In this document: positions 12,735 through 30,784 of the stretch, one piece after another | Position numbering within the stretch: the first letter of the stretch is position 1 | How the letters are laid out: the number at the start of each line of letters is the position of its first letter | NCBI GenBank assembly: GCA_903911145.1 | Contig: CAIWCD010000047.1 | Location: 1 to 40,425, forward strand | Origin: an uncultured delta proteobacterium | Lineage (GTDB): Bacteria; Myxococcota; Myxococcia; Myxococcales; 40CM-4-68-19 | Reading direction: 5' to 3' | DNA: 40,425 nt | Program-made: the position numbers and the translations under genes | Notes under the pieces: model-generated | Seen by the model: only the letters and a program-made list of their open reading frames with translations | The model's database searches: none | What the model was told of the DNA's origin: nothing

Positions 12735-13220
12735 ATGGTCCCATCTCCCGCGGCACAGATCGCCATTTCCGAGACCAACAGCAGCGAACCACGCATGCGC
12801 CCCGTCATCACGCGCATATCGCGGTCAACGCACGTCCCCAATCACATCGGCCTCAGTTGGCTCGATTCGAAGGCTGCCGTCTCGTTCGTCTCCGGTGATC
12901 CCAAGGCGCTCCTCGACGAGATCAGAGATCGCGCTCAGTCCCTCATTGGCCCAGACGCAACCTCCGCTCGGAGACGCAATATCGCGCGCGCGCTGGCGAT
13001 GACGAACTCGCAACTCTCCGTGCTGCAGATGCTCCAGGGCCAGGCTCTGGCTGCTCAGAACTGGAAGGCCGTCGAGCAACTGGATCGCATGCTTGATCGT
13101 CTCACGCGCCGGTATGGCGATCTCATCCTCGTGCATCGCCAAGAATACTCGTCGCAGCCGACGGTGCAGGTGACCACCCAGCACGCGAGCATCTACGCGA
13201 CCAATGGAGACGGGAAATGA
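12735..13220 (+). CDS. Hypothetical helical protein
   Basis: About 161 residues. The C-terminal two thirds are helical with a coiled-coil look (NSQLSVLQMLQGQALAAQNW, then a Leu/Arg-rich helix), ending in a polar tail. The start is not fixed: ATGs at 12735 and 12795 and a TTG at 12702 are in frame and none has a clear ribosome binding site. The stop overlaps the next start (ATGA), so it is translationally coupled to the zinc-finger gene at 13217. Small coupled pairs of this sort are typical of phage-derived regions. No family recognised. Confidence 0.5.
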   Translation: MVPSPAAQIAISETNSSEPRMRPVITRISRSTHVPNHIGLSWLDSKAAVSFVSGDPKALLDEIRDRAQSLIGPDATSARRRNIARALAMTNSQLSVLQMLQGQALAAQNWKAVEQLDRMLDRLTRRYGDLILVHRQEYSSQPTVQVTTQHASIYATNGDGK

Positions 13221-13558
13221 CGATCTACCGCGAGGACGTCCTGCGCGTTGGCCTGAGATCGATCCGGGCGCAATTCAAGCCGAGCGTATTTAAGCAGCTC
13301 GATCACGTGATCGTCGAGGCGGCATTTAATCCCGTTCGAGTGAACCTGCTGCGTGAGGCGTTTGCGTCGTGCAAGGGTGGAATGCGCACCTGGCTGGAAT
13401 GCCCTGGCTGCAAGCTGCGCACAGGAACCATAGGCTTCGCTAATGGTGCTTGGGGCTGTAATCGTTGCCAGAAGTGGCACGGGAGGCATAACCCGTGGAC
13501 TCAGCGCAGCGGGAAGCGGGTATCGGCACCGCTGCCCGTGCCCATGGTGAGCGTGTAG
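13217..13558 (+). CDS. Small zinc-ribbon protein
   Basis: 113 residues. An N-terminal helical part (to about residue 55) is followed by a ribbon with ligands CPGC and CNRC separated by about 18 residues, then WHGRHNPWTQR. The CxxC-x-R and CxxC-x-x-WHG spacing is typical of zinc ribbons in phage and transposon DNA-binding proteins. It overlaps the preceding gene by four bases. A strong terminator follows, so the pair forms one transcription unit. Confidence 0.62.
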   Translation: MTIYREDVLRVGLRSIRAQFKPSVFKQLDHVIVEAAFNPVRVNLLREAFASCKGGMRTWLECPGCKLRTGTIGFANGAWGCNRCQKWHGRHNPWTQRSGKRVSAPLPVPMVSV

Positions 13559-13796: not shown

Positions 13797-14231
13797 ATGA
13801 ACGGTCACTCAGCAAAGAAGATTGCGATCAAGGCAGCGAAGGAAAAGTACAACCAACTGACCGATAAGGTTCGAGACGTTTGGAGTGAAGGGGACGATCT
13901 CGTCTTCTTCTGGGATGGCTGTAAGTATCGGGATCTTCGAGACGGGCACAGCGTGATGCGAGACCTCCAGCACAAGGTTCTGCGCAAGATGCTCGAGGGA
14001 AAAGGCGCCAGTCAGGAATTGCGTGTGACGTATCCGCCTCCACATTGGGGGCGGGCGAAATCTGGTCGATCGGTCGTCTTGGCGTTCCGAGGAATAACCG
14101 TAGCAGACGTGGTCTATGCATTCAGTTCGATCCTCGAGGCAGTACATGAGAACAGTGGAAAGCGTTGTAGCGGTTGCGGATCGCCCGTCAATAATCACGA
14201 GCATCTGCAGCCCTTATCAGCACCCGTATAA
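13797..14231 (+). CDS. Hypothetical protein sharing a domain with the next gene
   Basis: 144 residues. A basic N-terminal helix precedes a compact domain containing RDGHSVMRDL, YPPPHWG and VVLAFRGI. The same order of motifs (KDGHSASRNL, YPPGGKVW, VVAHLFRGI) ends the 14362-15399 protein, so the two share a homologous domain. The C-terminus has a CSGCGSP pair near the end, perhaps half of a zinc site. The gene follows the operator-like repeat. AAGGAG lies 21 bases before the ATG, too far to be ideal, so the true start may differ. Function unknown. Confidence 0.55.
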   Translation: MNGHSAKKIAIKAAKEKYNQLTDKVRDVWSEGDDLVFFWDGCKYRDLRDGHSVMRDLQHKVLRKMLEGKGASQELRVTYPPPHWGRAKSGRSVVLAFRGITVADVVYAFSSILEAVHENSGKRCSGCGSPVNNHEHLQPLSAPV

Positions 14232-14361
14232 GGTTGTTATCGGCCCCCGCAATCCATCGCGGACGCAGCCATTTTCAATGCCAGCCGGCTCTGCGCCGCA
14301 CCTCCAGGAAATGAGTTCTGGCGGCGCAGGGCTGGCAAACACTAACCGAGGTTATCAACAC

Positions 14362-15399
14362 ATGACGACGAATAAGAATTTATCGCGGCCGTTCGGAATC
14401 AAGACATTGACCGCAGTGGCGCTTGCGAAGATGAAGTGGAAGCGGATCAAGAACGACACCAAGACGATGCTCGCGGCAGAAGTCTCTGTATTGTCCGCAT
14501 TCAATCCTGCCTACAACGACGCGCGGGCCCTGCTCCTCGCGATTGGAGGAATCGACGCCCGGTTCGCTCCCGATGACGACATCGTTAAGATCGCGTCCAG
14601 GAGCCAGTCGTTCTTCGACGTGCCGATCCAAATGATCCTCGGCGATCCGAGTCGGTGCCATTGGAACGCGGCAAAGCTGTGGAATGAAGACAAGAGCAAT
14701 CGGCAGATCGTCACCGGATTCGCCATTTCCGACGACGGACTATGGCGGCTGCATAGCTGGGCCTGGGACGGGTCTAAGGTCATTGAAACGACCGAAGCGA
14801 GACTCGCCTATTGGGGCTGCGTCCTGACGCCTGCCGAGTGCGAGGAGTTCACATTGAACCTCCGGAACGTCGATATCGCCCATCGGGCGCCGCATCAGAG
14901 CCCACCGCCAACGGGCCCGTCGAGTGTCGCTGCTAACGTGGCGAAGATGGAGAAGTCGATGGCGGAGAACCTGAATGGCGCGATGTCACTGGGCGGGGTT
15001 GTCGCACTCAGTGCGTATCGCGCGGGAAAAGACCATCCTCGCTTGCTATGCCCGATCGGCAATGGCGACATCGGTGTCGTCGATCTTGTACCGGGCGCAG
15101 ACTTCAAAGACGGCCACAGCGCGAGCAGGAATCTCGCCTATGGAGAACTGTGCAAACTCGTCGAGGACGATGGCGGTGCCTATGTAGAAAGCGGCGTCTA
15201 CCCGCCCGGAGGAAAGGTCTGGAATGCGCGTGGGCCATGGGAAGACGTCGCGCCTGGCCACGTTGTCGCCCATCTGTTCCGCGGGATCTCCTACGAGGCG
15301 TTGAGCGCTGCAGTGCGCGAGATCTTTGGGGCGCAGGACGACATTGATGACTCAGACGATGACGTAATGGAGGAGAGCGAAGCTCAGTCAGCAGCCTAA
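14362..15399 (+). CDS. Hypothetical two-domain protein, possible Cys/His hydrolase fold
   Basis: 345 residues from the ATG at 14362, preceded by GAGG. The frame is open from 14116, but that part overlaps the upstream gene and reads poorly. The N-terminal domain (about 1-190) has SRCHWNAAKLW, then ISDDGLWRLHSWAWDG and VIETTEARLAYWG. The order Cys, His in HSWAW, then an acidic strand is like permuted papain-fold (NlpC/P60-type) phage proteins; this is only a pattern match. The C-terminal domain (about 225-320) is homologous to the 13797 protein. The last 25 residues are acidic. It converges with the leftward operon that ends near 15.5 kb. Confidence 0.58.
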   Translation: MTTNKNLSRPFGIKTLTAVALAKMKWKRIKNDTKTMLAAEVSVLSAFNPAYNDARALLLAIGGIDARFAPDDDIVKIASRSQSFFDVPIQMILGDPSRCHWNAAKLWNEDKSNRQIVTGFAISDDGLWRLHSWAWDGSKVIETTEARLAYWGCVLTPAECEEFTLNLRNVDIAHRAPHQSPPPTGPSSVAANVAKMEKSMAENLNGAMSLGGVVALSAYRAGKDHPRLLCPIGNGDIGVVDLVPGADFKDGHSASRNLAYGELCKLVEDDGGAYVESGVYPPGGKVWNARGPWEDVAPGHVVAHLFRGISYEALSAAVREIFGAQDDIDDSDDDVMEESEAQSAA

Positions 15400-15520: not shown

Positions 15521-15697
15521 TTATTCGCGATCCGCCAGCGCCTTCAATTTCCCGTGCACGTCGGCGTAGGGCGCCTCGACGAGATCCAGCACGATGCCGA
15601 TCATGAGCCTGCGGAACCCGGCCCGGTGCGACGATTCCTTCACCGGCGCCGCCTCCCCCTGGCGAATGGCAACAACTTCGCCCCATCGGTGAAACAT
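15521..15697 (-). CDS. Possible 58-residue protein at the end of the C39 operon
   Basis: This small frame starts with an ATG 18 bases after the stop of the C39-like peptidase gene, in the same frame, and ends in TAA at 15521. The peptide starts MFHRWGEVVAIRQGE and contains an amphipathic helix (FRRLMIGIVLDLVEA) and an ADVHGKLKALADRE tail, which reads like a real protein. No good ribosome binding site is visible. The next 120 bases (15400-15520) hold only a further short frame (TTG at about 15508, 34 residues) that I do not call. Alternatively the whole 15400-15700 stretch is a decayed gene. Confidence 0.38.
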   Translation of the reverse strand: MFHRWGEVVAIRQGEAAPVKESSHRAGFRRLMIGIVLDLVEAPYADVHGKLKALADRE

Positions 15698-15715
15698 GGC
15701 GCGAAAGACATCAAA

Positions 15716-16384
15716 TTACTGCTCTTCCCCGCAATAAGCGCAAAAGCCCCACTCGCTGCTTATCGTGCTCTCGCAGGAGTCATCAGCGTTATCAACTGGC
15801 TTGCAGGTGCGGCTCGCCTTCGCGTAATGACTCCAATCCCGCTCCGCGCCACAATCGGGGCAGAAGCTCATCCAAGGCACGCACTGTTCGTGCGCACAGA
15901 CTACGATGCGAATTCCCCAGCAATCCGAGCGCTCCTTGAACGCTTCGTGCGTCTGTCTTCTTGGGCACGCGGCCTCCGAGGGATCGGCCACGTGTACGCT
16001 TTCCGAATCGATTCCATGGACGACCAGCCAATGGTCTTCTTCGTCCACCAGCGCGATGACGAGTTCCTCCGCTTTTAGGCAATCTCGGAGTTCCTTGAAT
16101 GAGATGTCCTCAGGCCCATAGACCTGCAGTCCAAGCCCACGGAGAGCGTCAGCCATGCTCTCGCCACCGGCGCCGTGTCCCTTCTTGGTCTTCGTCAGCT
16201 TCAGTATTTCCGCGAACGGCGGGCATTGCTTCGACAGGACGTGATTCGCCGCCATCCAGACGCTGTTGGCACCGCAACTATAGTCGTCGTCTTGTACGCG
16301 ACGATTGAAGCGGCTGGCCGGAACACCAACAAACCCATGAGCGATAGTCGTTTTGCGGTTCCACTTCGAGTGCCGACGTTTCAT
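15716..16384 (-). CDS. C39-like cysteine peptidase with C-terminal zinc ribbons
   Basis: 222 residues. All four landmarks of the peptidase C39 fold are present. The oxyanion Gln sits six before the nucleophile in VQDDDYSCGANSVWMAANHV, the catalytic His is in DHWLVVHGI and the Asp is in VHVADPS, at the usual spacing. After about residue 165 come two zinc knuckles, FCPDCG and the final WGFCAYCGEEQ, so this is a peptidase fused to ribbons rather than to an ABC transporter as in bacteriocin export. No signal peptide, hence cytoplasmic. The start overlaps the small ribbon gene upstream (ATGA). The final ribbon is nearly the same as the one ending the 16560-17204 protein, which suggests a common partner. 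It could act as protease, transglutaminase-like enzyme or toxin. Confidence 0.75.
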   Translation of the reverse strand: MKRRHSKWNRKTTIAHGFVGVPASRFNRRVQDDDYSCGANSVWMAANHVLSKQCPPFAEILKLTKTKKGHGAGGESMADALRGLGLQVYGPEDISFKELRDCLKAEELVIALVDEEDHWLVVHGIDSESVHVADPSEAACPRRQTHEAFKERSDCWGIRIVVCAHEQCVPWMSFCPDCGAERDWSHYAKASRTCKPVDNADDSCESTISSEWGFCAYCGEEQ

Positions 16385-16560
16385 TTTGACCTCCGCTTCG
16401 CCTTCACTTCAGCAATCCGCCGCTTACGCTCCTCGTGCGAATGCTGGAGGCCGCAGCTGCCGCACACGACATCCACTGGCGGCGACTCGCCCGTCAGCGC
16501 CGAGAACGAGTCGCCGCACAAGATGCAGGTAAATCTCTTCTCGACGAAGTCGGAGCGCAT
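16381..16560 (-). CDS. Small zinc-ribbon protein
   Basis: 59 residues from an ATG at 16560 that overlaps the stop of the upstream gene (TAATG). Four Cys in two pairs, CILCG and CGSCG, about 25 residues apart, make a classic zinc ribbon. A Lys/Arg-rich tail (EERKRRIAEVKAKRRSK) suggests nucleic-acid binding. Its own stop overlaps the start of the C39-like gene, so all three genes are translationally coupled. The frame reaches 16629, but the overlap start is preferred. Confidence 0.65.
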   Translation of the reverse strand: MRSDFVEKRFTCILCGDSFSALTGESPPVDVVCGSCGLQHSHEERKRRIAEVKAKRRSK

Positions 16561-17204
16561 TACGGCTCCGCGCCGCAGAACGCGCAGTAACTCCAGTCGG
16601 CAGATATAGTGCAGTCGCATCCGCTGCATTCGGCTTCGTCATCGAAGGACCACGCCAACTGCTCCTCGCTACACCAAGGGCAGTACGCCATCCAAGCTGC
16701 GATCTTTCCATCGCAGTCGTCGTTGTCGCAGTCCAACTCCAGCTTGTATCCCTTAGCCTTCGCCCGCGGCGTGTTCTCCAGACCGAAGTCCTGTTGGCAC
16801 GCCCAACAGTAGTTGAAGGCGTCGTGAGACGGCGCAGCACAGTTTGGGCACGGCGGGTTCTTGCCCGCCTCCCACTGCAGGCCTACGCCGCAGTCGGGGC
16901 AATAGTTCATCCATTTCTCTGCGGTCGGGTGATCGCAGTCCCCCTCCATATGGTATTTGATTCGCACTCGACCGTTGCCAGAAATAGAGATCGTTAGATC
17001 CTCGATATCGCCAAGCAACGACGAAAGGAACGGGCTAAGAAGGCGAACAACGACACTGCCCGCTCCGCCACCAACGGCATCGCCAATCCACGGCAGGATC
17101 GCCTCGGCACCGCCGGCGACGATTGCTGTCGGCACTGGGAGCTTGAAACCGCCGAAGGGCCAGACGGGTAAGTCGAAAGTTGATTCGTAAAGCTCGGTAG
17201 CCAA
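16560..17204 (-). CDS. Multi-zinc-ribbon protein
   Basis: About 214 residues. The start is a TTG at 17204 with GGGGAG five bases upstream. An upstream ATG (17303) would lie inside the divergent regulator gene and would translate its control region. The 83-base gap to the regulator then equals that of the sister module at 20143. The N-terminal 95 residues are hydrophobic to amphipathic, with Gly/Val-rich stretches that could insert in or lie on a membrane. A beta segment with SISGNGRVRIKYH follows. The rest has many CxxC pairs (CPDCG, CPNC, CWAC, CPWC, CSGC, CAFCG), that is about three ribbons. No enzyme motif is seen. Probably an adaptor or membrane-associated partner of the C39-like peptidase. 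Confidence 0.65.
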   Translation of the reverse strand: MATELYESTFDLPVWPFGGFKLPVPTAIVAGGAEAILPWIGDAVGGGAGSVVVRLLSPFLSSLLGDIEDLTISISGNGRVRIKYHMEGDCDHPTAEKWMNYCPDCGVGLQWEAGKNPPCPNCAAPSHDAFNYCWACQQDFGLENTPRAKAKGYKLELDCDNDDCDGKIAAWMAYCPWCSEEQLAWSFDDEAECSGCDCTISADWSYCAFCGAEP

Positions 17205-17234
17205 GTGCGCTCCCCACTCTCTGTTTTCTTTGCA

Positions 17235-17287
17235 GGGGGTACTATAGGCAGGTGGTCCGACACTGATCAATCGGTTCCTCTGGGCCT
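17235..17287. promoter_or_regulatory. Conserved divergent control region, copy 1
   Basis: This 53-base block between the divergent starts at 17204 and 17288 matches 20174-20226 at 45 of 53 positions without gaps. Constant parts include GGGGTACT, CAGGTGGTCCGAC and the stretch GTTCCTCTGGGCC that runs up to the GTG start. The part nearer the leftward gene is not conserved. It is therefore the likely operator/promoter of the XRE regulator and of the divergent operon. Confidence 0.68.
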
Positions 17288-17521
17288 GTGTCCAGGCAGC
17301 CATCGCTCAAGCAGGTCCAGAAAGAGATCGGCCGTCGCCTGAAAGCGGCACGCCTCGTCGCTGGCCCGACTCAGGAGAAGGTCGCTGCCGCAGCGTCCGT
17401 GGACTCCAAGCGCTACCAACGCCTCGAAAACGGCGGCGTGAATCCGACCATTCGCACGCTGCTGCGCTTGGCCACCGCCATGAAGACCGACTTCTGGTCG
17501 CTGCTGCGGGACGTACGATAA
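17288..17521 (+). CDS. XRE-family regulator, copy 1
   Basis: 77 residues, a single HTH_3 domain. Helix 1 is QKEIGRRLKAARL, helices 2-3 are TQEKVAAAASVDSKRYQRLE and helices 4-5 are NPTIRTLLRLATAMKTDFW. The GTG start matches that of the paralog at 20227. The TQEKVAAAA segment carries Pro where most relatives have Met (GPTQ instead of GMTQ). Probably a dimeric repressor of the divergent operon and of itself, with no separate signal-sensing domain. It may also read the operator of the sister module, because both recognition helices and operators are similar. Confidence 0.8.
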   Translation: MSRQPSLKQVQKEIGRRLKAARLVAGPTQEKVAAAASVDSKRYQRLENGGVNPTIRTLLRLATAMKTDFWSLLRDVR

Positions 17522-17530
17522 CCAGTCGCC

Positions 17531-18397
17531 CTACAGCTCGATCTCCTTCCATCTCGTCGAGCCATCTGCCAGCGCGGTGAGAATTCCAATCACGGGCTCG
17601 GATTCGTGAACGCCGCCGGTTCGGCCCATCAGATAGGCGGTGGCTTGTTTGCCGACCGTCCATTCCCAAGGGTCATCCTCTCCCATCGCGTGGATATGCC
17701 CGCAGACGATGGTGTCGAGCTTGCGCTTATCGGCGAAACGCTCAAGCCGGCGAAAATCCGCCGCAGGAAATCCAGCCACATCCTCACCGCCAATCCAGTC
17801 GTTGATGCTGAACAGGCTGCTCTGGAAAGGCGCGTTGTGGATGGCCAGCACGGATGACTGGCCTCGTCTGATACGCACGGCGTGAAGTCGCGCATCATCT
17901 TTCTTCCGCCAGAACCCATTGGCGGAATGCCCGGTCGTTGCCGAGGTTGTATCCGCAGCAAGGAGCATCGTGTCGCCGAGGTCTTTCGCCAGGGGGAAGA
18001 GATCGTCGTCACCAGCCAGGAGGTGTTCCGCTCTCGCCAGTTGCCCGGCCCAGTCGCAGAAGGTGTCGTAACTCTCCTGCGCGTCCGCCGTTGCCGCCTT
18101 TGCAAATTCAAGCGCGCGACGCACCAGACCTCCACGATGTGGAGTGTGGAAGATGTCGTGATTGCCAACGACAACCGTGAGCCTGTCGGCGCTCCAGAGG
18201 CCAATCTTGCGCAGGTATTTCTCAACGCGTTCTCGGTCGCGCTCCATGGCGGAAGCGCAGTCGAACGTGTCGCCAACCAGCACCACGTGATCGGCCTTCG
18301 CCTTCACCGCGGCCTTGAATGCCTCGCGGGCGAGGTCCCAGGACGCTGGCTCGGCCTCGCAGTCGATATGCTGGTCAGATAGGACGGCAATCTTCAT
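17531..18397 (-). CDS. Calcineurin-like metallophosphoesterase
   Basis: 288 residues with the full motif set of the family: SDQHID (D-x-H), VGDTFD (GDxxD), VGNHD (GNHD), the His of LAIHNAP and CGHIH (GHxH). Together these bind two metal ions and hydrolyse phosphoesters. It is longer than a minimal Ysh1/YfcE-type enzyme, with an insert around residues 85-160. The substrate cannot be told: nucleotides, nucleic acid or phosphoprotein. GAGG precedes the ATG. It starts 13 bases after the stop of the Ntn-hydrolase gene, so it is the last gene of the second XRE-controlled operon. Its end nearly touches the end of the first XRE gene (convergent, 9 bases apart). Confidence 0.85.
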   Translation of the reverse strand: MKIAVLSDQHIDCEAEPASWDLAREAFKAAVKAKADHVVLVGDTFDCASAMERDRERVEKYLRKIGLWSADRLTVVVGNHDIFHTPHRGGLVRRALEFAKAATADAQESYDTFCDWAGQLARAEHLLAGDDDLFPLAKDLGDTMLLAADTTSATTGHSANGFWRKKDDARLHAVRIRRGQSSVLAIHNAPFQSSLFSINDWIGGEDVAGFPAADFRRLERFADKRKLDTIVCGHIHAMGEDDPWEWTVGKQATAYLMGRTGGVHESEPVIGILTALADGSTRWKEIEL

Positions 18398-18410
18398 CGG
18401 GGAGCCTCGC

Positions 18411-19445
18411 TCAGAGTTGCAGGTCGAGGGTAGCGCCGCCTGGCACGCGGACGATCATTTGCCCGGTCTTCGGCTGCATCACAACCTGGTGCTGCGTGTC
18501 GTCTGCGAAGATGGCCGAGGACGAGAGCACCTTGAACGCGCTGTCCACCGTCACCTGCTTATCCGCGGTCTTCCGCTCAAGCGCCTCAAGGCGCTCGCAG
18601 GTATCCCAATCTTCGAGATCGACGTTATCGTCGGAGAGCTTCCCGCTGACGTAGTGGTTGGTCACCAGCAGCGGCTCACCGCCAGTCGCTTTGCGCAGAG
18701 CATTGCGATCGCAGCCGCGCTCGATCACGACACGCTCGTCGTTCTTCGTGCCGACGACCGTCAAGAGCACCGGGCTGAGCAGAAACTCGCTCTTCAACAA
18801 CTTCACCGCGGCGTTGAAGTCCTTGGCCTCGTCGAATGCGCGGCGAACGGCCCACGAAACCGGCCAATACCCAAGCGCAGCTCGCTTCGGCAATCCGAGA
18901 TATCCGCTTTCCTCTTCGCTCCGCACGAAGTTGACGGTGATGCTGAACCGGCCAGGCGCGACGCCAGTGATCACACCGAAGAGCCCCGGCCAGGTCACGG
19001 CAGCGTAGTCACCGCATGGTCCATTCTTCATTCGTGCGACGACCAGGTGCTTCTTGAGGAGCGATCGCGGGAACTCCCAATCAAGGTTTCGCGCGTGCAA
19101 TGGACCATTCGGCGTCGCAGCGGCGATGGTCGAGCAACCTACGTTCGAGATGTCATAGGCAGCATTCGCGAGCAGGACGTCTCGCGCAGGCATATTGAAA
19201 TGGTCCGCGAGGTCGTTGATCTCTTCCTCGTAGTGGCTGCCCAGAAGTGAATGCAACGCACCGGCGCTGAGCTTGAGCAACGACCAGCGCATTGAACCGA
19301 TAACGCCCTCGCCCTGCTTGTTGAACGCCGTGAGGAGCTTCGACCCGTTGCAGGGCGATAGCCTCAACGCCGAGGACCAGGAGGTATCGCTGGACAGATC
19401 GACGTCGATTACGGGAATTGACGGGCGTTGCTTGAATGCTGCCAT
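18411..19445 (-). CDS. Ntn hydrolase of the acid amidase / choloylglycine hydrolase type
   Basis: 344 residues from the ATG at 19445, preceded by GAGGCGGGGG. Around residue 103 the sequence is NVGCSTIAAATPNGPLHARN, continuing LDW. This is the hallmark of the NAAA/acid ceramidase-like branch of the Ntn hydrolases, where the chain is cut before the Cys and the new N-terminal Cys attacks linear amide bonds; the Arg and Asp of ARNLDW bind the substrate. The preceding 100 residues would be the alpha-subunit or propeptide. No signal peptide, so it would act in the cytoplasm, unlike its lysosomal relatives. Possible substrates are N-acyl amines, N-acyl homoserine lactones or peptide amides. It is followed closely by the phosphoesterase gene. 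Confidence 0.72.
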   Translation of the reverse strand: MAAFKQRPSIPVIDVDLSSDTSWSSALRLSPCNGSKLLTAFNKQGEGVIGSMRWSLLKLSAGALHSLLGSHYEEEINDLADHFNMPARDVLLANAAYDISNVGCSTIAAATPNGPLHARNLDWEFPRSLLKKHLVVARMKNGPCGDYAAVTWPGLFGVITGVAPGRFSITVNFVRSEEESGYLGLPKRAALGYWPVSWAVRRAFDEAKDFNAAVKLLKSEFLLSPVLLTVVGTKNDERVVIERGCDRNALRKATGGEPLLVTNHYVSGKLSDDNVDLEDWDTCERLEALERKTADKQVTVDSAFKVLSSSAIFADDTQHQVVMQPKTGQMIVRVPGGATLDLQL

Positions 19446-19544
19446 CAGTTGCCCCCGCCTCGTGAGTGTTCGCGCATCATCCTCCTCGCTGGGCCCGGTC
19501 CTTGGAGCCTCCCGGCTGATCGCCGGCGCGGCGTGCGCCACCAC

Positions 19545-19934
19545 TCAACCCCAATCGACCTCGAATCCATCCCGTCCCCCCTTCACGTTCGGTGGTTTGT
19601 CCCTCGTCAGGATACGTATCGCAGCGAAGCCGCCGGTGAACGCTAGGAAGGCACCACTCGCGATTAAGATGCCCAGCTTGCTGGTTGGGTCGGGGTCGAG
19701 AATCGCAGCCACGACCATCACCGCGCCTGCCAGCCCCATCCCGCACGCGACGCAGACCCCAACGATCTCCCTGGCCGTCAGACTCGCGGATCTGCCCATG
19801 TCGAAGAGCGTCTGATGCAGTGGATCAATTCCCGTATGGGCATCGTCGATAATCGTGACCGGCACTCGGTCTTTATAAGAAGCAGCAAGACGCGCAAGCC
19901 AGCCGGGCTCCGAGGTCTTGATGGTCTCGCTCAT
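19545..19934 (-). CDS. Small membrane protein, two predicted TM helices
   Basis: 129 residues from an ATG at 19934 that overlaps the stop of the upstream gene (ATGA). The first 55 residues are polar, with GIDPLHQTLFDMGRSASL. Then come two hydrophobic segments (IVGVCVACGMGLAGAVMVVA and LGILIASGAFLAFTGGFAAI) and a short basic tail. The longer frame to 20099 is a shadow of the neighbouring gene. Second gene of the operon controlled by the XRE regulator at 20227. Probably an inner-membrane partner of the Ntn hydrolase; no family recognised. Confidence 0.65.
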   Translation of the reverse strand: MSETIKTSEPGWLARLAASYKDRVPVTIIDDAHTGIDPLHQTLFDMGRSASLTAREIVGVCVACGMGLAGAVMVVAAILDPDPTSKLGILIASGAFLAFTGGFAAIRILTRDKPPNVKGGRDGFEVDWG

Positions 19935-20143
19935 GACCGAAATCCTCGCCGCAGGAACCATCCGCCCGCAGCCGCCAAACCGCCGCCCACCGTCGCGCTT
20001 GCCAACTCTGGAGCAACGGCAACGGCGGTGAGGATCGCGGCACCTGCGGCCAGTGCGCCAACGCCAACCTTCTCCAGTGTCGTGCGCGCTGCCCACCACT
20101 CAGTGACGTCCCACTCTTCCAGCAGCTTCGATTCGTCCGCCAT
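19931..20143 (-). CDS. Small membrane protein, first gene of the second XRE-controlled operon
   Basis: 70 residues. The ATG at 20143 has a very strong Shine-Dalgarno sequence (AGGAGGGG, seven bases away). A short acidic, Trp-containing N-terminus (EEWDVTEWWAARTTLEKVG) is followed by one long Ala/Val/Gly-rich segment (VGALAAGAAILTAVAVAPEL and more) and a basic end. One or two membrane passes are likely. Its start is 83 bases from the divergent XRE gene, the same distance as in the sister module. Confidence 0.65.
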   Translation of the reverse strand: MADESKLLEEWDVTEWWAARTTLEKVGVGALAAGAAILTAVAVAPELASATVGGGLAAAGGWFLRRGFRS

Positions 20144-20173
20144 GTGCGCCCCTCCTCGCGATGTTTGACGACG

Positions 20174-20226
20174 AGGGGTACTCTACACAGGTGGTCCGAC
20201 GCTGACCAATCCGTTCCTCTGGGCCC
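20174..20226. promoter_or_regulatory. Conserved divergent control region, copy 2
   Basis: Gap-free match to 17235-17287 (45 of 53 positions). It lies at the same place, between the start of a leftward operon (20143) and a GTG-started XRE gene (20227). The CAGGTGGTCCGAC core and the GTTCCTCTGGGCC end are identical in both copies. Confidence 0.68.
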
Positions 20227-20457
20227 GTGCTCAGGCAGCCGACGCAGAAACAGGTTCAGAGGGAGATCGGCCGTCGCCTGAAAGCGGCCCGTCTCACTGC
20301 AGGCATGACGCAACAGGGCGTCGCAGAGGCTGCTGAGGTCGATTACAAGCGATATCAGGATTTGGAGGGCGGACGGGTCAACCCGACCGTGAAAACGCTG
20401 CTGCGCCTGGCTGGCGCCCTTGGGATCGACTTCTGGTCGCTGCTGCAGAACGGGTGA
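20227..20457 (+). CDS. XRE-family regulator, copy 2
   Basis: 76 residues, GTG start. A single HTH_3 domain as in copy 1, with the same ends (RQPxxKQVQxEIGRRLKAAR and DFWSLL). The middle is more typical of the family (AGMTQQGVAEAAEVDYKRYQ). The two proteins differ in the turn and at the front of the recognition helix, so operator preferences may overlap but need not be identical. A 6-bp hairpin (AGCACT / AGTGCT at 20479-20497) follows the gene and could help termination, though it has no T-run. Confidence 0.8.
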   Translation: MLRQPTQKQVQREIGRRLKAARLTAGMTQQGVAEAAEVDYKRYQDLEGGRVNPTVKTLLRLAGALGIDFWSLLQNG

Positions 20458-22032: not shown

Positions 22033-22905
22033 ATGATCGATGAAATCAAACACGCTTTGAATCAGGGAGGTGCTCACCTCGGAGATCTTCTCTGGTGGAG
22101 CCTCTCCGACGCTGCAATTGATCGCGTCTCACTGGAGTGGCATTGGGCCGCGGCGGGACTCGCGCCGGGATTACTTCCCGAACCTCCGACGTCCGAGAAG
22201 GCATTCAAGCTGGCCGCGAGAGAAGCGGCGCTGGGACAGCACGACAGGCTGATCCGGTTATCTCTGGAGAACCAGTCGCAGATCGTGTTCGCGGTTGTCG
22301 AGGAGCGAAAGCACCTCGAAGGCAGCGTCAGCTACTTCCAGGAGACGAGGATTCTTCTCGACCGAGCTACGGAGAAGGTATCCGCGGACGATAGCAACCA
22401 CGATATCGCCAAGTCCGTATCGCTCTCGTATGAGCGGCTTCGCACGACGCATACGTCAGACGATGTTCGCCGCGCCGTTGTCAGGACGATTAACTCATTC
22501 GCTGCGGTAGCTCTCCGCGAGAGTGGCGGCGTCTATTGGATTCCAACGGTCTACGCGCAGCAACTCAGGCAGTTGCAATCGGCCGTCGAGAAGATTGGCC
22601 AGAGCAAGATGTATCTCCTGCCCGTGCACGACTCAGCCGATGCCGCTCGCACGCTGGGAGATGCCGCTCTGGGCTCGATTCAGGCAGAGCTTGAGCAACT
22701 GAAGGCAGAGGTCGATGGCTTCGTTGCAGCGCCACCGGAGAGGCCTTCAACGCTGGCTCGTCGGTTCGATGCGTATGAAGCCCTGCGGTCTCGGGCACAG
22801 CTCTATCGGGACGTCCTGCAGGTGCAGGTTGCAGATCTCGATCAGCAGCTCGACGGAATGACGGCGTCGGTGGAGCAACTGCTCCAGCAGAAGCAGGCGG
22901 CTTGA
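22033..22905 (+). CDS. DUF6744-like phage-type protein
   Basis: 290 residues from an ATG at 22033 with GGAGG five bases upstream; the frame is open from 21844, but that part is the leader. The protein is helical. It contains GGVYWIPTVYAQQLRQL and KMYLLPVHDSADA, the centre of a family I know from large phages and plasmids (DUF6744). A Leu/Gln-rich coiled coil near the C-terminus (VQVADLDQQLDGMTASVEQL) is also typical. Its function is not known. In phages it often lies near MoxR-type ATPases and VWA proteins, as here. It opens the plus-strand series that runs to 29.4 kb. Confidence 0.62.
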   Translation: MIDEIKHALNQGGAHLGDLLWWSLSDAAIDRVSLEWHWAAAGLAPGLLPEPPTSEKAFKLAAREAALGQHDRLIRLSLENQSQIVFAVVEERKHLEGSVSYFQETRILLDRATEKVSADDSNHDIAKSVSLSYERLRTTHTSDDVRRAVVRTINSFAAVALRESGGVYWIPTVYAQQLRQLQSAVEKIGQSKMYLLPVHDSADAARTLGDAALGSIQAELEQLKAEVDGFVAAPPERPSTLARRFDAYEALRSRAQLYRDVLQVQVADLDQQLDGMTASVEQLLQQKQAA

Positions 22906-22961: not shown

Positions 22962-23312
22962 ATGAGCACTCGTCTCGAAGCCACTCTTCCTGCCCCTCGC
23001 GTGTTGCAGCTCCAACGGCTCGCGACCGAGCTGCACATGTCGAAAAGCGATCTTGTCGGCGAGGCCGTGACGATTCTCCTGGAGGCTGCCCAGGAAACCA
23101 GGCGCGGGCATCGGCTCGCGTTCGTTGATGCTGCGCGCGAAAACGTCCGGGAGATTGCGTTGCCGTCTCTGTCACAGCTCGGATGGACCGCTCACGAGGC
23201 CGCTGCGGAGCTGACCCCGGTTGCACGCAAGCGAGCGCGCAAAGCATTGGCAAAGCCAGCCGCGCCAACGGCGGCGCTTCGTAAGGCGTTTGCTCGGCGC
23301 ACTCCGCGGTAG
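22962..23312 (+). CDS. RHH-type antitoxin of a GNAT toxin-antitoxin pair, putative
   Basis: 116 residues. Residues 1-45 form a ribbon-helix-helix: the strand TRLEATLPAP, then VLQLQRLATELHMSKSDLVGEAVTIL. A long tail that could block the toxin follows, ending in a Lys/Arg/Ala-rich stretch. GAGG lies eight bases before the ATG at 22962; the frame is open from 22902. The GNAT gene starts 10 bases after its stop. The order antitoxin then toxin, with the DNA-binding domain first, fits TacA/AtaR-type systems, but the tail is longer than in a typical DUF1778 antitoxin. Confidence 0.66.
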   Translation: MSTRLEATLPAPRVLQLQRLATELHMSKSDLVGEAVTILLEAAQETRRGHRLAFVDAARENVREIALPSLSQLGWTAHEAAAELTPVARKRARKALAKPAAPTAALRKAFARRTPR

Positions 23313-23322
23313 CCGGTCCGCG

Positions 23323-23847
23323 ATGACCGGGCTCATCACGGAAGAGATTCAGGCGCACGACTCTTCCGCGGGGTTCACCTGTGGGAAGGCGGAGCTCGAC
23401 GAATTCTTCTCGCAGCGCGCTCACAGCAACCACGAGCGCGGTCTCGGCAAGACGTTCGTGCTCCACGCCAACGAAGCCAGTCTGCCGACGGTCATCGGCT
23501 TCTACACGCTCTGCATGAGCAGTATCGCTCGCGAAGGACTGGCGCGAGCGCCGCGGAAGGTTCGTTCAAACGTGCCCCGCGATATCCCTGTCGCGCTGAT
23601 TGGCCGTCTCGCAGTTGACCAACGCGCGCAGGGTCGTAGGCTCGGAGAGGCGCTGCTCATCGACGCGTTTCGCCGCATTCTCTCCGCTGCGAATGCTGTC
23701 GGGTGCGCGGGAGTTCTCGTCCACGCCAAAGACGATTCGGCGGTGGCGTTCTACGCGAAGTACGGATTCATCGACCTCGACCCAGCTGCTCCGCATCCTC
23801 GCTCGATGCTGCTCGCACTGGATACCGTCGTTGCCGCTGTGAAGTAG
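23323..23847 (+). CDS. GNAT acetyltransferase toxin (TacT/AtaT-like)
   Basis: 174 residues. The N-terminus has the phrase typical of this toxin group, GFTCGKAELDEFFSQRAHSN followed by TFVL. The acetyl-CoA site is in VALIGRLAVDQRAQGRRLGE (motif A with the Q/RxxGxx turn), and the last strand region is FYAKYGFIDLD. TacT and AtaT toxins acetylate the amino group of charged tRNAs and stop translation. The RHH protein just upstream is the expected antitoxin and autorepressor. The start at 23323 was chosen because it begins the domain and follows the antitoxin stop by 10 bases. A terminator hairpin follows. Confidence 0.82.
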   Translation: MTGLITEEIQAHDSSAGFTCGKAELDEFFSQRAHSNHERGLGKTFVLHANEASLPTVIGFYTLCMSSIAREGLARAPRKVRSNVPRDIPVALIGRLAVDQRAQGRRLGEALLIDAFRRILSAANAVGCAGVLVHAKDDSAVAFYAKYGFIDLDPAAPHPRSMLLALDTVVAAVK

Positions 23848-23932: not shown

Positions 23933-25069
23933 ATGGTCAATCCCATCCAGCAGCTCCGCGCAGATCTCGCTTCCCGTTTCCCCGAACGCAAATCCGTCAT
24001 CGACGGCGCTCTCTCTGCAATCCTCGCTGGCGAGCACGTCCTGCTCATTGGCCCTCCGGGTACGGCCAAGTCCGCGCTCGTCAGGGCAATCGCGCAGGCG
24101 TTCTCCGGCATCTACTTCGAGCGGCTGCTCACCAAGTTCTCCACGCCCGAGGAGTTGTTCGGTCCGATCAGCTTGAAAGCCCTCGAGCAGGATCGCTTCG
24201 CCCGCGTTCTCACCGGAAAGCTGCCCGAAGCCGAGTTCGCATTCGTCGATGAGATCTTCAAGGCCAACAGCGCGATCTTGAACTCGCTGCTGACGCTCGT
24301 GAACGAACGCGTCTTTCATAACGACGGAGCGCCGATCCCCTGCCCGCTCGTCAGTCTCTTCGGCGCGAGCAATGAACTTCCTGACGGCAAGGAGCTCGAG
24401 GCGCTGTTCGATCGATTCATGCTCCGCTTCGACGTGGGCTACCTGCTGCGTCCGGCGAATCTGCGTGCCGTCATGCTCGCGCCCGAGCCTGTCCTGACGA
24501 CGGCGCTATCGATGGCAGATCTGCGCAAGGCTCAGCGAGATTCCGCTGCGGTGAAGCTCACGGACGCCACTGTGGATGCCGTGATCTCCATTCGCGAGGC
24601 GTGCGCAGCAGAGGGAATCATCGCCAGTGATCGGCGCTGGAAGAAGAGTCTGAAGATCCTCCAGAGCGCGGCGTATCTCGCTGGTGCAAAGGAGACCAGT
24701 CCCGAGGATGCGGCGCTGCTCACGGACTCGCTGTGGCGCGAGCCGAAGGAGCGGGCGAAGGTTGCTCGCCTGGTTGGGAAGCTCGCCGATCCCGTGAGCT
24801 CGCAGGCCACGGAGATCCTGGACGCTGCACGAGAGACGTCGCAGAAAGTCGCGGCGCTCAAGAGCGGTGATCGCAAGAGCTACATCGCTCAGGCCGCGCA
24901 GGCGTTGGAGCAGTTCGGCCAACAGAAGACCGCGCTGACGAAGCTGGCTCGCTCCGCAGGCAGGCGCGCGAAGGAAGTCATCTCCGACGCGACCAGCGAC
25001 ATCGAATCGCTGCACGCAGATCTCGCTCGCAGCGTGAGTGCCGGGCTGGGGCTCCGGAGCGCGTCGTGA
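23933..25069 (+). CDS. MoxR-family AAA+ ATPase (RavA-like)
   Basis: 378 residues. Walker A is LLIGPPGTAKSALVRA, Walker B is FAFVDEIFKANS and sensor 1 is FGASNELP. A DRFMLRFDVGYL stretch with the Arg finger follows. The pattern LLTKFSTPEELFGP is characteristic of MoxR/RavA. The AAA core ends near residue 230; the last 130 residues are helical with a coiled-coil character. MoxR proteins work with a VWA partner to remodel or load metals into client proteins, and the partner gene follows with a 4-base overlap. AGAGG precedes the ATG. Confidence 0.86.
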   Translation: MVNPIQQLRADLASRFPERKSVIDGALSAILAGEHVLLIGPPGTAKSALVRAIAQAFSGIYFERLLTKFSTPEELFGPISLKALEQDRFARVLTGKLPEAEFAFVDEIFKANSAILNSLLTLVNERVFHNDGAPIPCPLVSLFGASNELPDGKELEALFDRFMLRFDVGYLLRPANLRAVMLAPEPVLTTALSMADLRKAQRDSAAVKLTDATVDAVISIREACAAEGIIASDRRWKKSLKILQSAAYLAGAKETSPEDAALLTDSLWREPKERAKVARLVGKLADPVSSQATEILDAARETSQKVAALKSGDRKSYIAQAAQALEQFGQQKTALTKLARSAGRRAKEVISDATSDIESLHADLARSVSAGLGLRSAS

Positions 25070-26328
25070 AGCGGATCATCTATGACGTTCCGAAATGGCA
25101 CGTGCTCATGCACCGGACTTCACGAGGTCTGCCGCTGGCCGAGACCAGTGACGACGCGAGAGTGCGCTTTGAAGATGAGCTGTTCGAGAGGTTGTACTCG
25201 GGAGAGCCCGATCTGCTTCCGGAGAAGCAGCGCTCTGCAGAGCTGCGAGAGTGGGCGGAGAAGATCCACGGCGTCTGCGATCAGCTGCCGGAATTCCAGC
25301 GGCTGACCTCGTACTGCCGTGGCGATGCCGATGTCGCCGGAATGGCCGTCGAAGAGCTGATGGATCTGCTCGAACCACATCTGCAGAAGCCGCCTGACGA
25401 AGCATCAGCGCCACTGCTACGCCGGGCCATCAACGCCGGATGCAGCAAGGCAGTGGCTGCCATCGATGCGCAGAGCGAAGCCGTTGATGCTCTCGAGCAG
25501 GTGGGCTTCAGCAGCAAGCTCGGCAATGCGACCGGGTCTCGGAATCCGATCTCATCTCGCGCGTTGGCCAAGCGGCTCAAAGATGATCCCCGCCTGCGGG
25601 ACATCGCCAAGCTCGCTGGCAGGTTCAAGCGCATCGCGGCGAACAAACAGCGGAGCAAAGTGAAGCACGGCGCTGACGAGATCGCCGACGTTGAGATGGG
25701 CGCTGACATCGGGAGGCTGTTGCCGTCGGAGCTCTGCCGTTTGAATCAGCCAGCGCAGCGGCTGTCGTTCCTGCGAGACCTGACCGAGCGGCAGTGCATG
25801 CAGTATCGGCTCAGCGGGAAAGAGCCGCTGGGCAAGGGTCCGCTGGTTCTGCTCTTGGATAAGAGCGGCAGCATGGATGGCGCGAAGGACGTCTGGGGAA
25901 CGGCGATCGCACTGGCGCTCCTGGACATCGCGCAGAAGCAGCGGCGCATCTTCCATCTCATCTGTTTCGAGTCCGTGTTGCGCTACGAGGCCACTGTGCT
26001 GCCGGGGGATCCGCTGCCTGAAGAAGGGTTGTTCGTGAAGCCGAGTGGCGGCACTGAAATCGGCGACGCAATGAAACGGGCGCTGGATCTGATCGAGACG
26101 ACGCCGGCGCAGTTGAAGAAGGCCGACGTCGTTCTCATCACCGATGGATGGAGCGAGCCCAGCAGTGCTCCTGCTCTGCGCGCACTGGCGAAGGAGCTTG
26201 GCGTCACCGTGCTGGGATTCGGCATCGGTGTTGGCGAGGAGATCATCCAGCCTTGGTGCGATCAGCTTCGCGTTGTTCAGAAGCTCGAGATGGATGACGC
26301 AGCCGCCACGATGCTGTTCGGGCTGTAG
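25066..26328 (+). CDS. VWA-domain partner of the MoxR ATPase (ViaA-like)
   Basis: 420 residues from a GTG that overlaps the stop of the ATPase gene (GTGA). The N-terminal 240 residues are helical. The VWA domain follows, with an intact MIDAS: LLLDKSGSMDG (DxSxS), the Thr in PSGGTEIGDAM and the Asp in VVLITDGWSEP. This plan (helical N-part, VWA at the C-end, encoded next to a RavA-like ATPase) is that of ViaA/CoxE-type adaptors. The pair probably forms one chaperone complex. What it acts on is unknown; the LON-domain gene downstream is a possible third component. Confidence 0.84.
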   Translation: MKRIIYDVPKWHVLMHRTSRGLPLAETSDDARVRFEDELFERLYSGEPDLLPEKQRSAELREWAEKIHGVCDQLPEFQRLTSYCRGDADVAGMAVEELMDLLEPHLQKPPDEASAPLLRRAINAGCSKAVAAIDAQSEAVDALEQVGFSSKLGNATGSRNPISSRALAKRLKDDPRLRDIAKLAGRFKRIAANKQRSKVKHGADEIADVEMGADIGRLLPSELCRLNQPAQRLSFLRDLTERQCMQYRLSGKEPLGKGPLVLLLDKSGSMDGAKDVWGTAIALALLDIAQKQRRIFHLICFESVLRYEATVLPGDPLPEEGLFVKPSGGTEIGDAMKRALDLIETTPAQLKKADVVLITDGWSEPSSAPALRALAKELGVTVLGFGIGVGEEIIQPWCDQLRVVQKLEMDDAAATMLFGL

Positions 26329-27659: not shown

Positions 27660-28460
27660 ATGACCGCCAATGAGAAGAAGGCTCTGTACGCCGCGCTGTC
27701 TGCACCGTTCCCCGAGGACGCGATTGAGCGCACTGATGGCCGCGTCACCGGCCGCGGATATTCCACGACCGGCATCAAGTACCAGTACGTCGTCAACCGC
27801 CTCAACGAGGTGCTGGGCATCGGCAGCTACCGTGCTCACCGCACCGTGACCGTGAAGGAGATGCAGACCGCGAAGGGTCGTCCTGCCTTCGAGGCCATCT
27901 GCGACCTGACACTGGAGCTCGGCGAGTGGATCAACGGCGAGTTCGTCTGCTTCGCGGAGTCGCTCAGTGATGGCGCTCACCAGTCCATGTCCGAGGGCGA
28001 TGCGCGCAAGGGCGCCTACACCAATGCCTTCAAGAAGGCGGCTGCGTTCTTCGGCGTGGGCAGGCAGGCCTACGAGGGCAGCATCGATGACGATGCGGTG
28101 CCTGCAGAGGCTGAGGGCGAGAACGTGATTCGCATCCCGTCTGCTCCTGCACCCGCAGCGCCGACGCAGCAGCAGTCCGCACCACCGCCGCGTGCAACCC
28201 CAACACCCACGCCGCTCCCGATGCAGACGCCGAGTCGCAATCGCCTCACCAGCAAGCAGCTCGCAGCGCTGTGGGCCTTGGCCCGCAAGCTCGGGCACGA
28301 TCAGAGCCAGTTCCGGCAGAGCATCCGTCAACGCGAAGGAGTGCAGCCGGAATTTCTCTCGCGCGAGATCGCCTCGAAGCTCATCGGCGAGATGTCTGCT
28401 CAGCTCGGCAACGGACACGCTGCGCAGTACGAGGAGCGCCAGGTCGGGCAAGAGGGCTGA
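27660..28460 (+). CDS. Rad52/Rad22-type single-strand annealing protein
   Basis: 266 residues from the ATG at 27660, with AGGAG five bases upstream. The N-terminal 150 residues follow the Rad52 core: YQYVVNRLNEVLGIGSYRAH, a beta-sheet with a FEAICDLTLEL strand, and the hallmark RKGAYTNAFKKAAAFFGVGR that binds single-stranded DNA. A Pro/Gln-rich linker (about 165-195) and a small helical C-domain (SKQLAALWALARKLG, like the tail of other phage SSAPs that recruit SSB) follow. It would anneal complementary strands during phage-type recombination or replication. The nuclease gene begins one base after its stop. Confidence 0.8.
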   Translation: MTANEKKALYAALSAPFPEDAIERTDGRVTGRGYSTTGIKYQYVVNRLNEVLGIGSYRAHRTVTVKEMQTAKGRPAFEAICDLTLELGEWINGEFVCFAESLSDGAHQSMSEGDARKGAYTNAFKKAAAFFGVGRQAYEGSIDDDAVPAEAEGENVIRIPSAPAPAAPTQQQSAPPPRATPTPTPLPMQTPSRNRLTSKQLAALWALARKLGHDQSQFRQSIRQREGVQPEFLSREIASKLIGEMSAQLGNGHAAQYEERQVGQEG

Positions 28461-28461
28461 G

Positions 28462-29271
28462 ATGGGCGCGTTGCCCATCGTCGAGTACGGGACGCTGTAC
28501 GCCAGCGTCTCTCAGCTCAAGACGTTCCTGATGTGCCCGAGGAAGTTTGACCTCCGCTACGTGCGTGGAGCGTCACCGGCGTTCATCCCTGCTGCGCTGG
28601 CGTTCGGCACGGCAGTTCATTCGGCACTCGCGCGCTTCTATCTGGGGCATCAGCTCAACGGCACAGCACCGCCGCTGGAGTTGATCACGCAGACGTTCAG
28701 AGACGCGTGGGCCGCAGCGACAGCAGGTCCAGTGCCGTTGCAGGTGGACGATGACGAGGACATCACCAAGCTCATCGATCTCGGCGTGCGGATGCTCACC
28801 GTCTTCCATGCGCACGCGGCCGACAAGCCCGTGCTCGTGGAGGCCATCGAGTCGCCGTTCGCAGTACCGCTGCACGATCCCTCCACGGGCGAAGTGCTGG
28901 AGGAGATGCTCATCGGCGTGTTCGACCTGGTTGTTCGCGAGGGCGAGCGCCGGGTGATCGTGGAGCACAAGACGTCTGCGAAGAAGTACGCGCAGGATCA
29001 GCTGGAGCACGACCTGCAGATGAGCGGCTACAAGTTCGCGGCGAATGAACTTGGCTGGAGCGAAACAGGTCTGCGCTTCCAGGTCCTGACGAAGACGAAG
29101 ACACCAGCGGTGCAGTTGGACGATATCGTTCGCGGCCCGCTGGCCAATGACGATTTTCTCCGCACGGCAGTTGGAGTCCTGCGTGGCATCGACGCCGGTG
29201 TCAGCTACCCGGTGCGCGGCTGGCAGTGCAGAGGCTGTCCGTTTCGTGCGCCGTGCGAGACGCTGCCGTGA
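28462..29271 (+). CDS. PD-(D/E)XK nuclease with Fe-S-type Cys cluster (Cas4/RecB-like)
   Basis: 269 residues. Visible motifs are SQLKTFLMCPRKFDLRY (first Cys), ALAFGTAVHSAL (motif His), GVFDLVV (catalytic Asp), VIVEHKTSAKKY (ExK), QLEHDLQMSGY (QxxxY) and a C-terminal CRGCPFRAPC. One early and three late Cys are the 4Fe-4S pattern of Cas4, AddB and related exonucleases. It most likely resects DNA ends for the annealing protein encoded just upstream, like exonuclease and Red-beta of phage lambda. No cas1 or CRISPR array is present, so a CRISPR role is unlikely. AGAGG precedes the ATG. Confidence 0.84.
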   Translation: MGALPIVEYGTLYASVSQLKTFLMCPRKFDLRYVRGASPAFIPAALAFGTAVHSALARFYLGHQLNGTAPPLELITQTFRDAWAAATAGPVPLQVDDDEDITKLIDLGVRMLTVFHAHAADKPVLVEAIESPFAVPLHDPSTGEVLEEMLIGVFDLVVREGERRVIVEHKTSAKKYAQDQLEHDLQMSGYKFAANELGWSETGLRFQVLTKTKTPAVQLDDIVRGPLANDDFLRTAVGVLRGIDAGVSYPVRGWQCRGCPFRAPCETLP

Positions 29272-30625: not shown

Positions 30626-30708
30626 TTTTGGGCCGATTCGGGCAAATTCGGGCAAAGCCGCCCGAAGGCGACTTGCTGCGAAACTGCCGGATTTTACGGG
30701 AGAAAGAG

Positions 30709-30784
30709 TGGAGGCACCGATCGGAGTCGAACCGATGTATGAGGGATTTGCAGTCCCTTGCCTTACCAACTTGGCTACGGTGCC
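30709..30784 (-). tRNA. tRNA-Cys (GCA) with encoded CCA
   Basis: Read on the minus strand: a 7-bp acceptor stem GGCACCG / CGGTGCC, discriminator U and CCA in the gene. The D-arm contains AAGTTGGTAA. The anticodon stem AGGGA / TCCCT encloses the loop CTGCAAA with anticodon GCA. The T-arm ATCGG-TTCGACT-CCGAT is standard. Length 76 bases with CCA. The 3' end points left to the accessory region, the usual side for integration of mobile elements. Confidence 0.96.

Follow-up and report, generated by a model that had tools for sequence, protein, structure and literature searches.

Regulators of adjacent immune operons include CapH+CapP, CapW/BrxR and CapK+CapS (PMC13373217), the sites of RptR overlap the -10 box of a defence-island promoter (PMC12255303), and variable effectors are a theme of the bpMoxR-vWA ternary conflict systems (Kaur et al., 2020, PMC7159879). 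Regulators lying beside many immune operons (CapW, CapH+CapP, CapK+CapS, RptR) have been a recent route to new defence systems. Here, we describe two modules, each made of a small XRE regulator gene and a divergent cargo operon, from a stretch of 40,425 bp (the window) that is an entire contig (CAIWCD010000047.1, C47 below) of an uncultured delta proteobacterium of the Myxococcota (assembly GCA_903911145.1). We think it likely, judging from the sequence, that each module is an autoregulated repressor cassette of the C-protein or Cro kind, in which a bidirectional control region lies between the XRE gene and its divergent cargo operon. Ordinary housekeeping seems a poor description of this arrangement, which has more the look of a plug-in unit controlling accessory genes.

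A preliminary description of this DNA had named two GTG-started, single-domain XRE genes with divergent operons at a distance of 83 bp, and both coordinates and family matches bear this out: the two products match helix-turn-helix (HTH) families only, carry no extra C-terminal domain, and are separated from the divergent start by 83 bp in both modules (TTG 17204 to GTG 17288; ATG 20143 to GTG 20227). XRE1 and XRE2 are 71% identical over 75 residues and have in common the recognition helix D-S/Y-K-R-Y-Q, with S/Y as its sole difference. DNA likeness between the modules extends over 278 bp (17236-17513 vs 20175-20452), which is a control block plus the XRE gene, and ends outside them, with 24 of 100 positions identical past the XRE stop and 30 of 100 in the first 100 nucleotides of the divergent genes; the two divergent operons are mutually unrelated. 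The block had been given as conserved at 45 of 53 positions; its conservation stands, and the new alignment raises the count to 46 of 53. This compares with 18 of 32 four-fold degenerate sites in the XRE genes (Fisher p = 0.0035) and 12 of 30 positions between the block and the divergent gene (Fisher p = 1.4e-5), so the block is conserved above silent codon positions and is probably functional. Synonymous divergence (dS) of the XRE pair is ~0.9-1.2 with dN/dS ~0.2-0.3, and purifying selection acts on both genes. Set beside the identities of the block, the four-fold sites and the flank, this dS indicates an old duplication in which the block was retained; a recent tandem duplication of the modules is ruled out at dS ~1. 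The preliminary description had held that a block confined to two copies of one recent duplication, with unrelated housekeeping genes as neighbours elsewhere, would speak against a modular system, and the first half of that case did turn up: the exact 53-bp block has no further copy in the host genome, nor as DNA in 192 other genomes. The duplication, at such a dS, is not recent.

In the mechanism that we propose, an XRE dimer would bind the block over the divergent -35 and -10 elements, just upstream of its own start, as the anatomy of the region suggests (Table 1). Bound XRE would keep the cargo off or low and limit its own level. The XRE gene and promoter would form the constant part and the divergent genes the part that is swapped, and a cassette duplicated long ago within a tRNA-Cys island would now control two unrelated cargoes. 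Since blocks and recognition helices are nearly the same, XRE1 and XRE2 probably cross-regulate, and both cargoes would then be released together. The shared block and the similar helices would fit a common signal for the two operons, as had been proposed; joint release might occur when the repressor falls, for example on transfer into another cell or when phage or DNA stress sets in.

The modules sit, by several sequence signs, on an integrative island at tRNA-Cys. The 48-bp attachment (att) repeat, which lies where this gene has its 3' end, recurs exactly on contig C13 (G000:C13:488004-488051), where no full tRNA was found. Directly after that copy comes a tyrosine integrase (PF00589), and toxin-antitoxin pairs (YhaV/PrlF and PIN/Phd) follow as far as the contig end. 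The orientation is that expected of a single island spanning the end of C13 and C47:1-30.7 kb, a contig join that we infer. The GC fraction is 0.607 in the island part vs 0.651 in the contig flank. The core of the island encodes a DUF6744 protein, a MoxR-type ATPase, a vWA/CoxE protein (with vWA/CoxE-type matches alone across 420 residues), a Rad52-like protein and a PD-(D/E)XK (PDDEXK) nuclease, and no conjugation or capsid genes were recognised in the scanned parts.

Sister islands place different operons at the same site. DUF6744 occurs in 22 other genomes; MoxR and vWA genes come after it in each of the first 17 islands read, with Rad52 kept in 8/17 and PDDEXK in 7/17. After PDDEXK, the islands of genomes G051, G090, G012 and G052 have an XRE gene matching the same profile and pointing away, and opposite it each carries a different divergent operon; across the four, these were read as a glycine-rich membrane-like protein, a membrane protein with a lipoprotein, a GTPase with a zinc-ribbon membrane protein, and a repeat lipoprotein. 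At the equivalent place in G018 the XRE domain is fused to an HsdM-like protein. Genes read as restriction-modification (R-M) genes adjoin the core in G137, G090 and G018, those flanking it in G137 and G090 being type I-like. The twin paralogous islands of G164 (L187 18299-19501, L188 15485-16295), whose core also has a gene read as DnaN-like, have XRE genes that are 90% identical and divergent genes that differ; a 152-bp stretch spanning the XRE start is 95% identical and stops short of the divergent genes. They represent an independent second natural case of apparent cargo swapping. A housekeeping duplication was rejected given the island, the att repeat and the swapped partners.

A profile built from five XRE seeds (the window pair, G189:C133, G181:C564 and G181:C690) finds matches at E <= 1e-10 in 117 of 195 genomes from the phylum; the close group consists of the five seed places only, the next match falling from 114 to 66 bits. 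The recognition helix reads D-A/Y-K-R-W-Q in G189 and G181:C564 and H-L-R-Q-Y-Q in G181:C690. A TATAGT/TATAAT-centred partial palindrome is found in G189 and G181:C564; at the -10 position it is similar to the block of the window, GGGGTACTATAGGCAGGTGG. The palindrome of G181:C690 differs from theirs. The G181:C564 XRE stands opposite a zinc-ribbon/membrane protein. Distant relatives face zinc-ribbon/OB-fold proteins with a conserved palindrome, CACGTCGCTAGCGACGTG; in G150 the palindrome ACGACGCTAGCGTCGT precedes hsdM opposite an XRE relative, another distant relative faces an N6/N4 DNA methylase, and R-M neighbours occur in L153 and L148. The upstream neighbour is divergent for 36 of 45 XRE relatives, compared with 60 of the 215 other genes counted in those loci; the p value (1.7e-10) is generous, because the best-scoring loci were used and each related genome counts separately. 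Beyond the phylum set, plasmids and phages gave XREs all below 60% identity and DUF6744 in neither, Genome_contigs gave XREs of just 32-42% identity in unrelated taxa, neither the XRE profile nor the C39 protein had relatives among viral contigs, and plasmids had no phosphoesterase, no C39 and two distant C45 proteins. A search for the same regulator and block elsewhere had been recommended; related XREs do face varied operons, and the exact block is found in the window alone. As a separate observation, genomes of family f4 (L115, L117, L122, L124-L126, L129, L131, L134) have a recurrent small XRE opposite a zinc-ribbon, membrane-segment, OB-fold (tRNA_anti-like) protein, and these pairs carry, besides CACGTCGCTAGCGACGTG, a second conserved motif, GTAGGCGCTCCTAC.

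Against solved structures, the XRE profile matches C.BclI, C.AhdI, the R-M controller 3clc, Csp231I C, 434 Cro and DdrO (PDB entries 2b5a, 1y7y, 3clc and 3lfp among them), and in PHROG and NCBIfam the XREs match phage repressors, RstR and DicA. The latter matches would suit an origin of the XREs as maintenance or immunity repressors left over from a mobile element of the phage or integrative and conjugative element (ICE) type; these would have been duplicated along with their promoter, and the divergent genes would be passengers or lifestyle genes that make up no conflict system. The XRE kept right after PDDEXK in sister islands is a plausible element regulator, and the G181:C564 XRE adjoins genes read as primase-like and excisionase-like; we nevertheless regard this as rather unlikely, since two copies are under selection with conserved blocks before different operons, and members of the wider family stand opposite R-M and zinc-ribbon genes, not element maintenance genes. 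The swaps in the sister islands and in G164, together with relatives that face methylases and zinc-ribbon proteins, support the earlier idea of a constant regulator with an exchangeable operon, as far as the XRE gene and promoter are concerned; the idea does not extend to the phosphoesterase, which is probably a core gene (below).

Table 1. Features of the two modules and of the surrounding island, in window coordinates.
Feature	Coordinates	Strand	Remarks
XRE1	17288..17521	+	single-domain HTH regulator, 77 aa, GTG start
XRE2	20227..20457	+	single-domain HTH regulator, 76 aa, GTG start
Control block, copy 1	17236..17288		best 53-bp segment; 46/53 identical to copy 2
Control block, copy 2	20175..20227		46/53 identical to copy 1
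Promoter-like TTGATC-N18-TATAGT, operon 1	17241..17270	-	inside block 1; shuffles mean 0.0
Copy-2 counterpart TTGGTC-N18-TAGAGT	20180..20209	-	direct sequence reading, under scan threshold
Operon 1 gene 1, multi-zinc-ribbon protein	16560..17204	-	TTG start, 214 aa
Operon 1 gene 2, small zinc ribbon	16381..16560	-	59 aa, TAATG-coupled to gene 1
Operon 1 gene 3, C39-like cysteine peptidase	15716..16384	-	C-terminal zinc ribbons
Operon 2 gene 1, membrane protein	19931..20143	-	70 aa
Operon 2 gene 2, two transmembrane segments	19545..19934	-	129 aa
Operon 2 gene 3, C45/NAAA-like N-terminal nucleophile (Ntn) hydrolase	18411..19445	-	intact nucleophile Cys (GCST) and RNLDW motif
Calcineurin-like metallophosphoesterase	17531..18397	-	same strand as hydrolase, after hydrolase
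DUF6744 protein, island core	22033..22905	+	
MoxR-type AAA+ ATPase (bpMoxR), island core	23933..25069	+	PF20030 E 1.3e-55
vWA/CoxE (ViaA-like) protein, island core	25066..26328	+	
Rad52-like single-strand annealing protein, island core	27660..28460	+	
PD-(D/E)XK (RecB/Cas4-like) nuclease, island core	28462..29271	+	
48-bp att repeat	30706..30753		at tRNA-Cys 3' end; exact second copy on C13
tRNA-Cys	30709..30784	-	

The cargo genes first listed for the two operons (zinc ribbons and a C39-like peptidase; small membrane proteins and an NAAA-like hydrolase) are retained, with a refined frame for the small ribbon, best read as 16381-16560, and a refined hydrolase start, probably ATG 19445. In operon 1, the peptidase passes the PF03412 cut-off (29 bits vs 22), and direct reading with a weak ComA alignment gives a triad of Cys in YSCGAN, His in DHWLVVHG and Asp in VADP. 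The gene 1 product has no strong transmembrane segment; its residues 78-212 are 40-50% identical to the ribbon array of a protein in 37 other genomes, all of family f4, whose C terminus was read as J-domain-like in both loci read (L173 and L176). The operon 1 ribbons (window 16560-16970) could possibly be a captured client-binding part of a chaperone; a structure prediction of the zinc-ribbon protein (pLDDT confidence score 37.8) was not used. The peptidase would probably act on a partner recognised via the shared zinc ribbons.

In operon 2, the hydrolase scores 117.6 bits with NF040521 (cut-off 85), matches PDB 6dxw at E 3.6e-18, is similar to NAAA and acid ceramidase, and aligns its nucleophile Cys with residue 1 of the NAAA beta chain; with the corrected start it has no apparent signal peptide. 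It would probably act, as an amidase, on N-acyl amides at the membrane. Close relatives of the phosphoesterase that follows (49%) were found in G164 only, where both copies are island-core genes flanked by DUF6744 and MoxR, so that it is probably not an interchangeable effector and more likely a core nuclease-type gene; as a free effector it was rejected. Hydrolysis of N-acyl amides is the activity of the C45 family, and with the intact nucleophile and the likeness to NAAA and acid ceramidase it invites a metabolic or social reading, in which the targets of amidase and phosphoesterase are N-acyl lipids or signals, degraded in quorum quenching or as prey lipids, the C39 unit processes a peptide and the XRE senses a nutrient or signal. 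We give this little credence: the genes lie on an integrative island that has a recombination core and toxin-antitoxin pairs, amidase relatives in G137 and G051 share their contigs with an integrase and the island core, and the phosphoesterase belongs to the core in G164.

Toxin-antitoxin-like units, with the XRE as a HipB/HigA-like antitoxin and the first small divergent gene as toxin, would accord with weak similarity of the XRE to TIGR03070 (Y4mF/HipB-type antitoxin), with the 70-residue membrane peptide that opens operon 2 and with the toxin-antitoxin pairs common in the window island. Family profile scans, however, detected no toxin family in either operon, the genes are divergent instead of overlapping, and the two operons open with unrelated genes, which makes such units very improbable. 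We return, then, to the repressor cassette, whose cargo probably serves an accessory defence or stabilisation function, because R-M genes are carried by sister islands and toxin-antitoxin pairs by the window island.

Several observations weigh against this reading. PADLOC gave no convincing known defence family for the window cargo (at most the phosphoesterase, at E 0.0084), its Cas4 matches being to the core PDDEXK nuclease, outside the cargo. The promoter scan of block 2 gave nothing above threshold, and the window block is weakly palindromic, set against the clear palindromes of XRE relatives. The C39-like protein has just one weak relative in 192 other genomes. The sister-island XREs are just ~32-38% identical to those of the window, where BLAST matches at all, and the island cassettes may therefore have been assembled independently. 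A bolder version would make the XRE and promoter a transferable docking cassette that captures arbitrary operons. A C39 protease guided by its ribbons and a C45 amidase linked to the membrane would here share one co-released regulon, amounting to a novel modular conflict system whose effector classes are new as well; we offer this version tentatively and think it doubtful. If the XRE and promoter are the fixed part of exchangeable modules, the regulator could serve as bait for new cargo enzymes, and two natural paralogue pairs (the window island and the G164 twin islands) permit direct tests of cross-regulation and cargo swapping.

Other genes of the window are noted here in their own right. 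Between DUF6744 and MoxR (23001-23847) lies a pair encoding a ribbon-helix-helix-like protein and a GNAT acetyltransferase, possibly a TacT-like toxin-antitoxin. The segment 2056-10969 encodes two FGE-sulfatase-domain proteins and one PEGA-domain protein, with weak DUF3280 matches in two of the three; diversity-generating retroelements often target the FGE fold. A two-gene pair at 12795-13558, the second product with a zinc ribbon, also occurs in the G032 island (35-38%), which has a protein read as C39-like as well. Two neighbouring genes at 13797-15399 have alike C-terminal parts (YPP...FRGI motif) and no known family match.

Among described regulators, the C proteins of type II R-M systems (C.BclI, C.AhdI, 3clc) are alike in fold, size, single XRE domain and a position adjoining the cargo, and relatives of the window XREs face HsdM and another DNA methylase; they differ in that the window cargo consists of C39-like or C45 enzymes rather than R-M genes and that the window XREs are divergent from it. 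C proteins typically work at paired palindromic C-boxes ahead of their own gene, where the window has a conserved, weakly palindromic block, and they first activate and later repress their own promoter. CapH+CapP, CapW/BrxR, CapK+CapS and RptR likewise put a constant regulator at the promoter of varied operons, and RptR, with its site overlapping a -10 box, is a close functional parallel but has its own DNA-binding mode. CapW/BrxR is a WYL protein, CapS is a STAS-wHTH protein with a kinase and CapH is paired with the peptidase CapP, whereas the window modules have a lone XRE, no sensor partner found, and cargo without a known defence family; the adjacent metallopeptidase partner of CapH has no counterpart among the module genes in the family profile scans. 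HipB/HigA toxin-antitoxin systems have an adjacent cognate toxin, and no toxin family was detected in either window operon. The island core resembles the bpMoxR-vWA ternary systems in a bpMoxR-family ATPase adjoining a vWA protein, and differs in that no beta-propeller or third component was found and MoxR-vWA stands with DUF6744, Rad52 and PDDEXK. The hydrolase passes the C45 cut-off and keeps the catalytic Cys motif and RNLDW of the C45/NAAA family, one difference being that it is encoded after two small membrane proteins. With ICE- and phage-like tRNA islands the window island shares the att duplication of the tRNA 3' end, the tyrosine integrase, recombination genes, toxin-antitoxin pairs and swapped cargo. 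Regulator-plus-cargo modules on integrative islands are already known, and it is the cargo of the window that is unusual.

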